The notes under the pieces: generated by a model
What the model was told of the DNA's origin: nothing
What the model saw: the letters and a program-made list of their open reading frames with translations, nothing else
Databases searched by the model: none
Shown here: positions 9,814 to 49,223 of the stretch, in pieces
Layout: each line of letters begins with the position of its first letter
Position numbering within the stretch: the stretch's first letter is position 1
Made by a program: the position numbers and the translations under genes
DNA from: Sphingomonas hengshuiensis
GTDB taxonomy: Bacteria; Pseudomonadota; Alphaproteobacteria; Sphingomonadales; Sphingomonadaceae
Direction: 5' to 3'
DNA length: 64,000 nucleotides
Assembly (NCBI RefSeq): GCF_000935025.1
Contig: NZ_CP010836.1
Coordinates: 1,364,001-1,428,000, forward strand

Positions 9814-10245
9814 TCAGTTGCCGCCTGCTCCGGGCAGGCAGATCACGCCTTGGTCGCCGGTTTCGACGACGCTGATGTCGGGCTGGTCTTCGCTCCCGAT
9901 CAGCCGGGCGAGGCTGGCGAGCGTGCCGACCATCGTCGTTACGCCCTTTATAGGACGCCCGCGCGGATCGCGGCGGGGAAGGGGGCGCCCGCTCCGCGGA
10001 TCGCGGCGGCGCACCGGCGGGGGGGCGATCGTCGCCATCCGCTCCGCCACCGACGCGGCGTCGCCCGCACGCCCGAATTCGCGCCACACCACGTGAAACC
10101 CGGCGGGGACCGCGACCCAGTCGCCGTCACCGATGCTGTGGATCAGGTCGCGCCCGCAATGGTGGCAGACGCTGAATTCCAGCCCCTGGTTCTGATGCCG
10201 CGTCGCGACGGGGACATGCCCCAGGACCGAACAGAGAATTCCCAT
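9814..10245 (-). CDS. Hypothetical small protein with an N-terminal Cys cluster
   Basis: 143 aa, function unknown. The N-terminus (MGILCSVLGHVPVA, then FSVCHHCGRDLI) has Cys5, His10 and a CxxC (Cys27, Cys30) arranged like a small zinc-binding module; the layout recalls short DUF1660-type proteins, which is inference. The middle is Arg/Pro-rich (residues 77-100, probably disordered), and the C-terminus ends with a short CLPGAGGN tail. The stop of mraZ and this ATG are adjacent, so the two are cotranscribed. Confidence 0.7.
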   Translation of the reverse strand: MGILCSVLGHVPVATRHQNQGLEFSVCHHCGRDLIHSIGDGDWVAVPAGFHVVWREFGRAGDAASVAERMATIAPPPVRRRDPRSGRPLPRRDPRGRPIKGVTTMVGTLASLARLIGSEDQPDISVVETGDQGVICLPGAGGN

Positions 10246-10246
10246 C

Positions 10247-10723
10247 TCAATGCACTCCCTTGGAGGGGCCGGCGTCCAGCGTGAAGGCTGCCAGCGCGCG
10301 GACCTGATCATCGTCACTCTGCATCGCGAGGTCAGGGTTCCATATCTCGAAACGGTCGCCCGCGCCCAGGAAGAGTGCCAGCCCGCCGATCCGGCCCAGG
10401 TGGCGCATTTCCGCCGGGATGCGCAGCGTCGCATCGGCGCGCGGCATCCGCCCGACCAGTCCGAAGCTGCGTCGCATCCGCCGATAATGGCCGCGCGCAT
10501 CCTCGCCGCGCGCTTCGTCGGCCAGCCGCCGGCGCTCGTTGCGCGCGGCGACCGTGTCGAGATGCGCCCGGTCATAGCCGACCAGGCAGGCGTCCGATTC
10601 ATGCTTTCCGACCAGCAATTCGGGGCGGTCGGCATCCAGCGCTTCGTTAACGAAGCCGGGCATCGGGACATTGCCATCGGCATCGACTTCGCACAGCGCG
10701 CTTCCGTGAAATAGGCTACTCAT
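10247..10723 (-). CDS. MraZ-family DNA-binding protein (orphan copy)
   Basis: 158-aa protein with two SpoVT/AbrB-like halves: the first includes GSALCEVDADGNVPMPGFV, the second includes PRADATLRIPAEMRHLGRIG and LALFLGAGDRFEIW. The second is clearly the MraZ repeat (DxxxRxxxP...LxxxGxxxxFEIW); the first is less conserved. MraZ normally heads the division/cell-wall cluster and binds TGGGN repeats upstream of itself. Here no rsmH, ftsL or ftsI follows and no TGGGN array is visible upstream. ATG 10723 is chosen because the family alignment begins there. Confidence 0.75.
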   Translation of the reverse strand: MSSLFHGSALCEVDADGNVPMPGFVNEALDADRPELLVGKHESDACLVGYDRAHLDTVAARNERRRLADEARGEDARGHYRRMRRSFGLVGRMPRADATLRIPAEMRHLGRIGGLALFLGAGDRFEIWNPDLAMQSDDDQVRALAAFTLDAGPSKGVH

Positions 10724-14644: not shown

Positions 14645-16237
14645 ATGCTGGGTGGAATGCAGGATTTCGAGCTTCGGGTATCCACCTTGCTCGATCACGC
14701 GGCGCGCGAGCACGGATCGCGCGAGATCGTCACGCGCTGGGCCGATGGCAGCGAGACGCGCACCGACTGGGCAGGGATCGCCCGCGACGCGCGGCGGCTG
14801 GCGCAGGCGCTGGAGCGGCTGGGGGTGAAGCCCGGCGACCGGGTCGCGACGATGGCGATGAACCACAGCCGCCATCTCGTCGCCTGGTATGGCACGATCG
14901 GGATGGGCGCGCTGATCCACACGATCAATCCCCGGCTGTTCGACGACCAGCTCGCCTTCATCGCCAACCATGCCGAGGACCGGGTGCTGCTCTACGATAA
15001 GGCGTTCGCGCCGATCGTCGACCGGCTGCGCGGCCAATGGCCGACGATCGCGCACTATGTCTGCTTCGACGGCGACGACGCGCAAGGGTTCGAGGCGCTG
15101 ATCGCGCGCGAGGACGGCGACTATGCCTGGGTCCAGGGCGACGAGCGCGAACCGTGCATGCTCTGCTACACCAGCGGGACGACGGGCAATCCCAAGGGCG
15201 TCGTCTACACCCACCGCTCCACCGTGATCCATGCGATCACCGAGTTACAGCCGGCGGAGTTTGACCTGTCGACGCAATCGGTGGCGATGCCGATCGTCCC
15301 GATGTTCCACGCGGTCGGCTGGGGGCTGCCCTTTGCCGGGGCGGCGGTCGGGGCAAAGTTCGTGTTCTCTGCGGTCAACGAGCCCAGAATCCTCTGCGAC
15401 CTGATGAACCGCGAAAAGGTCACGCATTCCGCCGGGGTGCCCACGGTCTGGTTCGGCATGTTCCAGCATATGGATGCGACCGGCGATGCGCCGCAGCACC
15501 TGAAGATCGTGACGATCGGCGGATCGGCCGCACCGCGCGCGATGATCGAGCGGCTGATGCGGATGGGCGTCCGCGTCAACCATGCCTGGGGGATGACCGA
15601 GACGTCGCCGATCGGCACGATGGGCGCGCCCTCCGCCGATTGGGACGATCTCAGCTTCGAGCAACAGGTCGATCAGGTCGCGATGCAGGGCAAGGTGCCG
15701 TTCGGCGTCGAACTGCGCGTCGTCGATGACGAGGGCGCGGTGCTACCCCGCGACGGCAAGAGCTCGGGCCGGCTCCACGTCCGCGGCCCCTGGGTCATCC
15801 GCCAGTATTTCGGCGAGGAGGCGCCCGCGGTCGATGCCGATAACTGGTTCGATACCGGCGACGTCGCGGTGCTGCACCCCGACGGCACGATGCAGATCAC
15901 CGATCGGGCGAAGGACGTCATCAAATCGGGCGGTGAGTGGATCAGCTCGGTCGAGCTGGAAAATGCCGCGGTCGGCTGTGCGGGCGTCGCGGAGGCGGCG
16001 GCGATCGGCGTGTATCACCCGCGCTGGGAGGAGCGCCCGATCCTGCTGGTGGTGCGCAAGCCCGGCAGCGAGGTGACCGCCGAGGCGATCCAGGCCTATC
16101 TGGCGCAGCACGTCGCGCGCTGGTGGCTGCCCGACGAAGTCCATTTCGTCGACGAGCTGCCCCACACCGCGACGGGCAAGCTGCTCAAGACCGCGATCCG
16201 CGCGCGCTACAAGGATTTCCGGCTGGCGGCGGCTTGA
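14645..16237 (+). CDS. Long- or medium-chain fatty acid--CoA ligase (AMP-dependent synthetase)
   Basis: Activates a carboxylic acid to its acyl-CoA via an acyl-adenylate. 530 aa. Motifs: the P-loop-like [17 protein letters not shown] (about residues 175-192), [43 protein letters not shown] and the C-terminal catalytic Lys in [14 protein letters not shown]. It belongs to the FadD/AlkK-like subgroup. ATG 14645 is preferred over 14627 because GGAGAG lies six bases before it and family members start MLGxMQDF. Confidence 0.92.
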
Positions 16238-45975: not shown

Positions 45976-47369
45976 TTGGAAGCCTTGGTTCTCGCGGCGA
46001 TCATCGTGGCGCTCGTCGTCGGGCTGTTGCTCGGCTGGCTGGCCGGGGGCCGTCCGGCTGCCCGCTACCGCGCCGAACGCGACGCGCGCGAGGCCGATTT
46101 CAAGGCGGCGATCACCGATCTCGCCGGCGCCGAACAGCGCGCCAGCGAAATCCCGCCGCTGCGCGAAGCCGTCGCGATCCTGCGCGACGAGCGCGACCGC
46201 GCCCGCATCGAACTGGCCGAGCTGAAGGCCAAGGCGGGGATGTTCGAGGAGCGGCTCGCCGAATTCGTGATGGCGCGCGAGATGATGGCCGGGCAGTTCC
46301 GCGAAGTCGCGACGACGATGCTCGGCGAGACGCAAAAGGCGTTCCTCGAACGTGCCGAGGCCCGGTTCAACCAGGCGGGCGAGAAGAATGAGGAGAAGCT
46401 CAAGGCGCTGCTCCAGCCGATCGATTCGACGCTCAAACGCTATGAGGAAGGGCTCCAGCGCGTCGAGAAGGACCGCAACGACAGCTATGGCGCGCTCAAG
46501 GAGGCGATCACTGCGGTCCAGGCCGGGCTGGGCGAGACCCGCACCGAAACCGCCAAGCTGGTCAACGCGCTGCGCGCCGCGCCCAAGACGCGCGGCCGCT
46601 GGGGCGAGCAGCAATTCCGCAACCTGATCGAGATTGCGGGCCTGTCGGGCCATGTCGATTTCGCCGCCGAAGTTTCGGTCGCGACCGAGGATGGCGCGCT
46701 GCGTCCCGATTTCATCATCCGCCTGCCGGGCGACCAGCAGCTTATCGTCGACGTCAAATGCGTGCTCGATGGCTATCTCCAGGCGGCGGAGGCGACGTCG
46801 CCCGAGGAGCGCCAGGCGGCGTTGGTCTCGCATGCCCGCGCGGTCCGCACCCATGCCGATGCGCTCTCGCGAAAGGCCTATTGGGCGCAGTTCGAAAAGG
46901 CGCCCGATTTCGTCATCATGTACATTCCGGGCGACAATTTCCTGTCGAGCGCGCTCGAAGTCGACATGGAGCTGTGGGAGCGCGCCGCGCGCAATCGCGT
47001 GATCATCGTCGGCCCTCGGGCTTCCTGCCGCTCGCGCGGACGGTCGCATCGATGTGGCGCCAGCAGAAGCTGACCGAGGATGCACAGGAAGTCGGCAAGC
47101 TCGGCAAGGAAATGTTCGAACGCCTCGCCACCGCCGCGACGCATCTCAAGCGGGTAGGGGGCGGCCTCAACAGCGCAGTCGAGAATTACAACAAGTTCGT
47201 CGCGAGCTTCGAGGGCCGCGTGATGGTCTCCGCCCGCCGGTTCCAGGCGCTCAACATCGATACCGGCAACGCGACGCTCGACAGCATCGAGAGCGTCGAC
47301 GTGGTGGCGCGCGCGACCAGCGCGGAACTGCTCCCGGCGCCTGAGGCGGCGGAGGAAAACGCCGGCTAG
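45976..47369 (+). pseudogene. rmuC: DNA recombination protein RmuC, frameshifted
   Basis: N-terminal membrane helix (LVLAAIIVALVVGLLLGWLA), a long coiled coil, then the RmuC nuclease-like core (LRAAPKTRGRWGEQQFRNLI, LIVDVKCVLDGYLQA, VIMYIPGDNFLSSALEVD). After NRVIIVG at about 47010 the frame leaves the family sequence and stops at 47073. The next frame continues it at once (SGFLPLARTVASMWRQQKLT, then FEGRVMVSARRFQAL) to 47369. One base missing in GGCCCTCGGG (47011-47020; GGCCCCTCGGG expected) explains this. A sequencing error cannot be excluded. Confidence 0.88.
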
Positions 47370-47384: not shown

Positions 47385-47885
47385 TTATCCGGGCGGCGTT
47401 TGAAAGCTTGCTCCGATCGGCTCCGAACGCCCCGCCTGCCGTGCGGCGATCCAGCGTTTGAGTTCGACGACGTGGCCGTTCTCCTCGTCGACGAACTCGC
47501 GCGCGAACGCCCGGATTTCCGGGTCGGTCGTCGTCTCGAGTATCCCCGAATAATAAGCGAGCCCCGCCATCTCGGCGGCAAGCGCGGTGTCCAGCGCCTC
47601 CTCGGGCCCGATCAGCGGGTCCGCGGCCCAGATCGCCGCCGATTCGGGGCTCTCATTGTCCGGCCACTCGAATTCATGCGGCGCCAGGTCGGGAATCTTG
47701 CGATACCCCGACCGTTCGCGCGCATCCGCGAGATGGAGCCGCGAATAATCCGCCAGCTGGCGGAACAGCTTCGCCACGCCCAGATTGCCGCTCGTCTTCA
47801 TCGCATCGGCCAGCTGGTCGAATCGATCGGCCGCCTCGCGCTCGAGCCGGATCGCATGCGCCAGGAATTCTTCTACCGTTTCCAT
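47385..47885 (-). CDS. Ferritin-like / rubrerythrin-like domain protein
   Basis: 166-aa four-helix-bundle protein. Candidate di-metal ligands: Glu15/Glu17 (IRLEREAADRF), His51 (YSRLHLAD), Glu105 (AAEMAGLAYY) and Glu135/His138 (DEENGHVVEL). The first ExxH is changed to SxxH (Ser48). It resembles the C-terminal half of the upstream fusion protein, including SRLHLA and a WPD motif (EWPD here, VWPD there), so the two look like tandem paralogues. AAGGGGA precedes the ATG; the gap to the fusion gene is 28 bases, so it is probably cotranscribed from the sigma-54 promoter. Confidence 0.8.
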   Translation of the reverse strand: METVEEFLAHAIRLEREAADRFDQLADAMKTSGNLGVAKLFRQLADYSRLHLADARERSGYRKIPDLAPHEFEWPDNESPESAAIWAADPLIGPEEALDTALAAEMAGLAYYSGILETTTDPEIRAFAREFVDEENGHVVELKRWIAARQAGRSEPIGASFQTPPG

Positions 47886-47913
47886 CGCGTTCCCCTTGGC
47901 GGTTGGCTCGGGA

Positions 47914-48840
47914 TCAGCTCGCGGATGCGGGCTCGGGCTCCGGATGGTTGGCCGCCCATTCCTCGCGCGTGATCCACGCCTCCAGGACCTTCACATGCTC
48001 GGCCTCTTCGCGGACGAACAGCTTGGCCATCGCGATGATGTCCTCGTCCTGGCTCTTGGCCGCGACCGAGAGATAGAATTCATAGCCGCGCCGCTCGCCC
48101 TGGAGCGCGGCCCGCAAGCCGTCGAGCCGGGTGAGCGCCGGGTCGCCCGCGAGCAGCGAGGTGCGCTCGGGCGTGGCGTGATCGGGCCAGACATAATCGG
48201 GCGGCACCACGACATCATGGTCGAGCGTGCCCGCGCGCGCCTGCGCCTCGGCGAGGTGGAGCCGCGAGAAGCCCGCGAGCTGGCGGAACAGCGCGGCTAC
48301 CTCGCTGTTGCCGCATGCTGCCATCTGGTCGGCGAGCCCGTCGAAATGGAGCGCGGCGTCTTCCTCGACCTTAACTGCATAGCCCAGGAATTCGGACAGC
48401 GAGCCGATCTCGATTCCGCCGGTGAAGCGCTTGGCGGCATGGCTGATATGCGGGGTCTGCACGGGCAGCGTCTCGTCGCCTTCGAACGTCACCAATATGT
48501 CCTCGTTGCGCACGAAGCATTGGCAGGCGAGCCGGTGGCGGGGCGGCATGTCGTTGACCTCGGCGTTGACGATCTCCTCCTTGGTGATCTTGCCGAGCTG
48601 TTTGAGCATTTCCTTTTCCTTTTCGGTCAAGGCGATGCCATATTTGCCATAGGTGGTGGTCGGGTTGAGGTGGGTGACTTCGACCAGGCACGACCCGCAT
48701 TCGCCGTCCTGGCAATCGAACGGGATCGGGATCTTGTGCTGCTTGGCCACCGCGAGAACGGTGCCGCGGTCGCCCGCGATGGCATAGACGGTCACGTCCT
48801 TGCCCATGCGCGGCGACGAAAAGGTTACGTTGGCCATCAT
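47914..48840 (-). CDS. Fusion of 2Fe-2S ferredoxin and ferritin-like domain
   Basis: 308 aa. Residues 1-125 are a 2Fe-2S ferredoxin with Cys43, Cys48 and Cys51 (DCQDGECGSCLVEV, Cx4CxxC) and a fourth ligand at Cys106 (or 108) in LACQCF. Residues about 148-290 are a rubrerythrin/ferritin-like bundle with Glu159/160, His195, Glu249 and Glu279/His282 (EEAEH); the first ExxH is SxxH, as in the paralogue next door. A ferredoxin could feed electrons to a di-iron site, as rubredoxin does in rubrerythrin; peroxide reduction is inference. GGGAG precedes the double ATG at 48840. Confidence 0.85.
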   Translation of the reverse strand: MMANVTFSSPRMGKDVTVYAIAGDRGTVLAVAKQHKIPIPFDCQDGECGSCLVEVTHLNPTTTYGKYGIALTEKEKEMLKQLGKITKEEIVNAEVNDMPPRHRLACQCFVRNEDILVTFEGDETLPVQTPHISHAAKRFTGGIEIGSLSEFLGYAVKVEEDAALHFDGLADQMAACGNSEVAALFRQLAGFSRLHLAEAQARAGTLDHDVVVPPDYVWPDHATPERTSLLAGDPALTRLDGLRAALQGERRGYEFYLSVAAKSQDEDIIAMAKLFVREEAEHVKVLEAWITREEWAANHPEPEPASAS

Positions 48841-48887
48841 GTTCTCCCGGTCTTTCGCCCGACGCTGGTCGGCTCGCGCACCGGTTA

Positions 48888-48903
48888 AGCAAATTTCGTG
48901 CCA
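48888..48903 (-). promoter_or_regulatory. Sigma-54 (RpoN) promoter of the ferredoxin-ferritin operon
   Basis: Minus strand TGGCACGAAATTTGCT (48903-48888): exact match to TGGCAC-N5-TTGCW, with GG and GC ten bases apart as needed for -24/-12. The predicted start of transcription is near 48877, about 37 bases before the ATG. A direct repeat TGTCGC-N7-TGTCGC (49005-48987) lies about 110-130 bases upstream of that start, where an enhancer-binding activator would sit. Confidence 0.8.
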
Positions 48904-49223
48904 TGCGCTGATGTGGGGGCGGGGCCCATGCGGCGCCCCCGATATCGCGGTAAAAGTGTCGGCTTTCCGCCACGCAGGAACGGTTTGCGACACGGCGCCG
49001 CGACATTCGCAGCCGCCTGTCCAAAAGGGGCTGGCAATGTAGGATTTCGCGTGCAACGCTCATCGCCGCTCTTTGAAATCGCCGGATTCGCCCACCCCCG
49101 CGTCGCCCCGCCCCGGCGATGCGGAGCACGCTTCAGAAGCCTAAACTTCGCCCCGGTGAAACGGCCCAGCGTTGCCGTGCCGGTCACCCTCCAGAACCCT
49201 AAACTTCGTAAACTTAGCCGGGG
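48904..49223. other. Gene-free region upstream of the sigma-54 promoter
   Basis: 320 bases without a convincing gene or tRNA. Besides the TGTCGC repeats it holds CTAAACTTCG twice (49141-49150 and 49199-49208, both plus strand), of unknown meaning. Confidence 0.5.

Follow-up and report, generated by a model that had tools for sequence, protein, structure and literature searches.

What would a ferredoxin gain from being joined to a rubrerythrin-like helical bundle, and why should such a protein stand under a sigma-54 promoter? The question is raised by a two-gene operon on the minus strand of the Sphingomonas hengshuiensis DNA analysed here (64,000 nucleotides, referred to below as the window). 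A promoter at 48903-48888 is followed after 47 nucleotides by a gene for a fusion protein of 308 residues (48840-47914), and after a further 28 nucleotides by a gene for a stand-alone bundle of 166 residues (47385-47885), called here the paralogue. The fusion consists of a ferredoxin domain (residues ~2-122), a linker (~123-146) and a rubrerythrin-like four-helix bundle (~147-298). Both proteins lie on the strand and at the positions given in a preliminary description of the sequence, and its domain assignments hold: by Pfam, the fusion has a Fer2 domain (E 2.1e-9) followed by a Rubrerythrin domain (E 4.1e-9), and the paralogue has a Rubrerythrin domain (E 9.1e-10). Neither protein has an NCBIfam match above cut-off. 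Judging from sequence, we think it rather probable that the operon is a module that protects nitrogenase from oxygen, controlled by RpoN and probably by NifA.

The ferredoxin half (48475..48837, minus strand) is the more readily placed. Using phmmer, residues 2-122 of the fusion match residues 1-118 of the 122 in the Azotobacter FeSII protein (Shethna protein II, 5ffi) with E 5e-33, and ordinary ferredoxins are far behind (best E 0.028). The predicted structure of the fusion is of middling quality (best of five models, with a mean predicted local distance difference test score, pLDDT, of 75.9 and a predicted template modelling score, pTM, of 0.48). When it was used as a Foldseek query, the top PDB match was 9cu1_N, which is FeSII in a nitrogenase filament (E 3e-11), and 14 of the 16 matches with E <= 0.001 were FeSII structures, the other two being 2oh3 and 1vjx. 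Cys43, Cys48, Cys51 and Cys106, already proposed as the cluster ligands in the preliminary description, are invariant in 54/54 aligned fusions. According to the alignment, the long loop (lid helix) of the FeSII type is present between the third and fourth cysteines, and the model has helices at 73-82 and 87-95 within it. His57 aligns with H55 of FeSII, and is His in at least 90% of the 54 fusions. It is concluded from these comparisons that the ferredoxin domain of the fusion is a homologue of FeSII. The preliminary description could match the operon to no described system, a claim that is not supported given this match to FeSII.

FeSII is described as binding the MoFe and Fe proteins of nitrogenase to give an inactive, oxygen-protected complex, with an activation that involves oxidation (PMC12585515; PMC11301756). 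Is the fusion, then, found together with nitrogenase? Among 385 alphaproteobacterial genomes, 13 have nifD. An FeSII domain (threshold E <= 1e-10) occurs in 7 of these 13 and in 0/372 nifD-negative genomes, and the fusion itself in 5 of the 13 (G000, the host, and G042, G244, G169 and G348) and again in 0/372; in the other two, G043 and G051, the FeSII domain occurs only as a separate protein. Fisher tests against nifD give p values of 7e-12 for the domain and 2e-8 for the fusion, which are only a guide given that the genomes are related. Within the host's own family (249 genomes), the fusion is present in 2/6 nifD-positive genomes and 0/243 others. In the class of Derxia gummosa (274 genomes) 14 genomes have an FeSII domain; nifD is present in 26 genomes, 13 of the 14 included, and the fusion is found only in Derxia.

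The converse search, starting from the fusion, gave the same picture. A scan of species genomes found 88 relatives, and the best 80 of these 88 loci were used (L029 and L033 belong to a single genome). A search for nifD in 50 host genomes taken from the 80 loci, which by their titles are 39 isolates and 11 metagenome-assembled genomes (MAGs), placed 45 above the nifD cut-off (38/39 isolates and 7/11 MAGs), and 48 have a NifD-type match. The exceptions are the MAGs of L013 and L026, which have no NifD match, and the MAGs of L037 and L047 and the isolate of L024, where the match is weaker or partial. The genera carrying the fusion include Rhodopseudomonas, Methylocystis, Bradyrhizobium and Derxia as well as sphingomonads. 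The fusion is linked to nitrogenase genes. The bundle in general is not: genomes without nifD also contain weaker COG1633 matches (28-37% identity, E ~1e-10 to 1e-22). When the fusion was the query, every bundle match with 40% identity or more came from a nifD-positive genome, although this cut is not clean, the operon's own paralogue being only 37% identical to the query.

Because the ferredoxin is of the FeSII type and the fusion tracks nitrogenase, oxygen protection of nitrogenase is the likely theme. The co-occurrence with nifD led us to set aside a general role in peroxide or iron handling that has no connection with nitrogenase. The preliminary description had suggested a dedicated redox, peroxide-removal or iron-handling system; peroxide removal is retained below as part of our reading, while the general redox or iron theme was not borne out.

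Co-occurrence with nif genes would also suit an electron carrier for nitrogenase or for FeMo-cofactor assembly, in which the bundle would be a docking or storage part, and loss of the [2Fe-2S] ferredoxin FdC is reported to slow diazotrophic growth of Rhodobacter capsulatus on Fe-nitrogenase strongly (PMC10936413). We regard such a role as improbable. The homology is to FeSII, which is an inactivator of nitrogenase, and the FeSII domain is missing from 6/13 alphaproteobacterial nifD genomes. A potential of -262 mV is high for a nitrogenase electron donor. This is the midpoint potential given for FeSII (PMC11301756), and by the account in PMC10936413 no nitrogenase donor with only an [Fe2S2] cluster is known.

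The gene neighbourhoods give a second line of evidence for the link with nitrogenase. Although the flanks are short in many cases, nifH, D, K, E, N or B lies within the flank at 14/80 loci (L017, L028, L041, L042, L043, L046, L076, L077, L082, L083, L084, L085, L087 and L090; a NifK match of 25% identity in L080 was not counted). On a contig of Alteraurantiacibacter aquimixticola (G244/L109), the fusion and the paralogue adjoin nifB, nifH and nifD. In G043 (L103) there are separate FeSII (10031-10387) and bundle (15486-15926) genes, in a single cluster that also has nifHDKEN, nifB and fixABC. Since both occur there as separate genes of a single nif cluster, this suggests that FeSII and the bundle may work together even when unfused. 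A tree of the FeSII domain, which has too few columns to decide on a single origin of the fusion, showed two label changes, with one change in 65% of bootstrap trees. Derxia gummosa was considered as a further neighbour case and rejected, because the fusion and nifD are on different contigs. The pairing of the two genes is also conserved: the paralogue adjoins the fusion in 48/80 loci (43 downstream and 5 divergent), and in one more it is ~4.6 kb upstream.

The host itself carries nitrogenase genes. In its genome of 5.23 Mb (two contigs), NifH, NifD, NifK, NifB, NifV and NifW are above curated cut-offs at ~C1:3.237-3.265 Mb, NifA is above its cut-off (708.6 bits), and rpoN is present. The possibility that the fusion lies inside this nif cluster was rejected, as there is 1.84 Mb between them. 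Two transposase-like genes, identified by eye, are found just past nifH in the cluster (L011:6217-8815; G000:C1 ~3.2542-3.2568 Mb). The genome also has two extra proteins of the NifH family (G000:C1:5012268-5013056 and 5028799-5029581); it is a guess that they are BchX and BchL, in which case the host would be a phototroph.

The promoter was examined next to the genomic background. TGGCACGAAATTTGCT, at 48903-48888 on the minus strand, is the exact sigma-54 element TGGCAC-N5-TTGCW of the preliminary description, here as TGGCAC-N5-TTGCT and 47 nucleotides before the first ATG. It is the sole exact match in the window, where 0.06 would be expected, and at least one match appeared in 6/100 shuffles. 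There are 12 exact matches in the 5.23 Mb genome and none to a reversed control pattern, and the 12 include sites upstream of nifH, of nifB and of genes resembling, by eye, hesB/iscA, PII and FlgB. In an alignment of the window with seven relatives, the GG and TTGC core is invariant. A sigma-54 score of at least 10/12 was reached by 43/80 fusion upstreams, compared with 42/846 other upstreams and 183/8000 random stretches; the 846 control upstreams come from the same loci, nif genes included, and the 80 loci are mutually related. With rpoN in the genome, the RpoN-type control that was proposed earlier is well supported by the sequence.

Control by NifA is likely. A strict NifA site (TGT-N10-ACA) is present within 250 bases upstream in 37/80 fusion loci, against 62/846 other upstreams, and the combination of a sigma-54 score of 9 or higher with such a site 60-160 base pairs (bp) further up is found for 27/80 fusions, against 21/846 and 33/8000 random stretches. 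In the window, TGGCGGAAAGCCGACA (48957..48972, minus strand), 69 bp upstream of the -24 element, is a one-mismatch site of the form TGG-N10-ACA and a possible degenerate NifA upstream activator site. It agrees at 14/16 letters with the strict sites TGTCCGAAAGCCGACA of L014 and L016, which are 78 and 79 bp upstream. No other stretch on either strand of the window matches at 13/16 or more, and 14 was reached by 0/2000 shuffles of the upstream 250 bases. The host's own nifH, nifB and hesB-like promoters have strict NifA sites 78-113 bp upstream. At L011:5599 (+), divergent from nifH, there is a further promoter, TGGAACGAAATTTGCT, with two TGT-N10-ACA sites, which differs from the fusion promoter by one base.

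The bundle of the fusion (residues 147-298; 47947..48402, minus strand) was delimited from Pfam, conservation, predicted helices (148-175, 179-203, 238-262 and 266-298) and a match to 2oh3 (phmmer E 4.8e-18). The paralogue, defined by Pfam, fold matches and conservation, has 2oh3 and rubrerythrin as its best fold matches. Structure prediction, which the preliminary description had proposed, gave four-helix bundles for both proteins. The candidate metal ligands are E159, H195, E249, E279 and H282 in the fusion, and E15, H51, E105, E134/E135 and H138 in the paralogue. The preliminary description had remarked on an SxxH sequence and a WPD motif common to both proteins, and both are conserved. In S192xxH195 of the fusion, S is present in 52/54 and H in 51/54 aligned sequences, and in S48xxH51 of the paralogue both are found in 42/42; W and P of the WPD motif are invariant in both sets, with D in 41/54 fusions and 31/42 paralogues. 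We rejected the idea that SxxH sets this operon apart: it is a family trait, and is also present in the solved homologue 2OH3.

The di-iron ligand set of rubrerythrin includes an ExxH motif in helix B. Its Glu is replaced by Ser192 in the fusion and Ser48 in the paralogue, and the full rubrerythrin set is not present. No C-terminal rubredoxin domain was found in the fusion by Pfam at E <= 1; the redox domain is instead the N-terminal [2Fe-2S] domain. A ferritin-like fold could also belong to an iron store or chaperone feeding the nitrogenase clusters, in which the ferredoxin would reduce the ferric iron in store, and the paralogue does match encapsulated-ferritin families weakly, under the curated cut-off. 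We consider this very improbable, given that 2oh3 and rubrerythrin rank first among the fold matches, that Ser replaces one ferroxidase-type carboxylate, and that the partner domain is of the FeSII type.

How might the parts act together? Under nitrogen-fixing conditions or nitrogen limitation, sigma-54, most likely with NifA, would turn on both genes. If oxygen entered, the ferredoxin could pass electrons to the bundle, whose modified metal site would use them to reduce O2 or peroxide. The bundle would in this way clear oxidant beside nitrogenase, and would oxidise and thus trigger the FeSII switch. The oxidised FeSII-type domain would then bind the MoFe and Fe proteins, to form an inactive, oxygen-resistant complex that lasts until oxygen falls. 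The separate bundle protein would be a likely partner subunit for the bundle of the fusion. The switching-on of the genes has sequence evidence behind it, and the later steps of this scheme are drawn from homology to FeSII and rubrerythrin. We suggest more tentatively that the protein may be a self-contained oxygen switch, in which the bundle senses or consumes O2 or peroxide and passes the oxidation on to the FeSII domain to give protected nitrogenase, while the separate bundle sets the assembly. If so, conformational protection would be a widespread strategy of alpha- and betaproteobacteria, with a built-in trigger and extending beyond Azotobacter.

A number of observations weigh against a role in protecting nitrogenase. 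The strongest concerns the lysine pair of FeSII. Lys14/Lys15 mutants of Azotobacter vinelandii FeSII lost interaction with nitrogenase (Lou 1999, reported in PMC3045800), although according to PMC3045800 direct contact of these residues with nitrogenase was not demonstrated. The pair is absent from the fusions, which have V/I/L16 and T17 at the aligned positions in 54/54 cases. There is also no Lys at either position in 14/14 stand-alone FeSII-like sequences, of which 12 have a K/R-D-V-T motif (this set includes P0132 and P0135, possibly fragments of fusions). Because the pair is missing from these relatives as well, either the contact between FeSII and nitrogenase may be a different one outside Azotobacter, or the protein may have another function.

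One such function would be that of a nif-induced peroxidase, in which the bundle breaks down H2O2 in the manner of heterocyst RbrA, the fused ferredoxin supplies electrons, and binding to nitrogenase has been lost. We consider this unlikely, if less so than the electron carrier: the FeSII-type long loop has been retained, the replacement of Glu by Ser lowers the likelihood of a canonical peroxidase site, and the absence of Lys is weak evidence for lost binding, since the 14 stand-alone sequences do not have it either. The same replacement also bears on the protective role that we prefer, because with one canonical carboxylate fewer it is uncertain whether the bundle would have oxidase or peroxidase activity. 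In addition, the free C-terminal end of FeSII is taken up by the bundle in the fusion.

The remaining points against protection concern distribution and regulation. Many hosts, for example Rhodopseudomonas, can fix nitrogen anaerobically, where oxygen protection is less needed. The fusion is missing from 8/13 alphaproteobacterial nifD genomes, including the six that have no FeSII domain at all, and G757, a genome of 1.7 Mb, has an FeSII domain and no nifD match. By the cut-off used, the paralogue was not found in the flanks of 31/80 loci, five of which have little downstream sequence; in two of these five (L036 and L091, with 67 and 72% identity) it starts at the contig end, where it is cut, and they were counted as having no paralogue. 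In the host genome, the operon is far from nifD (1.84 Mb). A strict NifA site was not found for the fusion promoter in the window; of the 12 exact sigma-54 sites in the genome, four have one, all in the nif region. Since the sites before the FlgB-like and PII-like genes, like that of the fusion, have no strict NifA site, an activator other than NifA is possible for the operon.

Some details of the locus remain. The start M-A-N-[VI]-T-F is conserved in 21 aligned relatives with one or two exceptions, so that translation probably begins at the second Met (48837) rather than at 48840. Some stand-alone FeSII-like proteins (P0225, P0227, P0230 and L107:7346-7699) have a GEPGGA-like C-terminal tail, where the fusions have the linker. 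By eye, the neighbours of the fusion in the window look like housekeeping genes. A gene that is RmuC-like by eye (45976-47369) is broken across two frames near 47020, suggesting a frameshift or an assembly error.

Public databases label such proteins as rubrerythrin/ferredoxin, 2Fe-2S protein or ferritin family protein. We found no description of an FeSII-rubrerythrin fusion in the open-licence literature, where no single paper mentions FeSII as well as rubrerythrin, or Shethna protein as well as ferritin-like. A 2016 study reported predicted NifA sites before a ferredoxin gene 'fer2' in Rhizobiales and Rhodospirillales (PMC4999443), groups in which the fusion also occurs, and this may be the fusion gene. 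As both FeSII and rubrerythrin are already known, our results suggest that what is new is that the two are fused, that the fusion has a partner, and that it is spread among diazotrophs. A. vinelandii and A. chroococcum are stated to be the only species in which protection by FeSII has been demonstrated (PMC11301756), and the oxidation-induced change that activates it is described as only starting to be understood (PMC12585515). With the fusion, two questions become testable: whether conformational protection occurs widely, and what the oxidant of the FeSII switch is. This would also have a bearing on the engineering of oxygen-tolerant nitrogen fixation.

Among known systems, FeSII itself (5ffi, 5frt, 8rho, 9cu0-9cu2) shares with the fusion a near-full-length domain, the four cysteines, the long loop and a nif-linked distribution. 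The fusion differs from it in having a C-terminal rubrerythrin-like bundle, often a second bundle gene, no Lys14/Lys15, and hosts in alpha- and betaproteobacterial genera. 2OH3 (COG1633, from Magnetospirillum magnetotacticum, and titled an uncharacterized conserved protein) is a chain of 167 residues that has no ferredoxin domain and keeps only the W of the WPD motif. Rubrerythrin (1ryt) and heterocyst RbrA have a C-terminal rubredoxin and the full di-iron ligands, in contrast to the N-terminal FeSII-type [2Fe-2S] domain of the fusion and its Ser in place of one Glu. Three further ferredoxins can be set beside the fusion's domain. FdxD (FdV) of R. capsulatus is nif-linked, has a [2Fe-2S] cluster and is implicated in protecting Mo-nitrogenase against oxygen (PMC10936413), but is encoded by a separate ferredoxin gene. 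A 2Fe-2S ferredoxin of Burkholderia described as 'FeSII-type' has been proposed to give conformational protection (PMC3937718), as has the 2Fe-2S ferredoxin Gdia0615 of Gluconacetobacter diazotrophicus (PMC3045800). Gdia0615 is reported to have 18% identity to A. vinelandii FeSII and to lack the larger loop of 13 residues (PMC3045800), whereas the ferredoxin domain of the fusion is much closer to FeSII.
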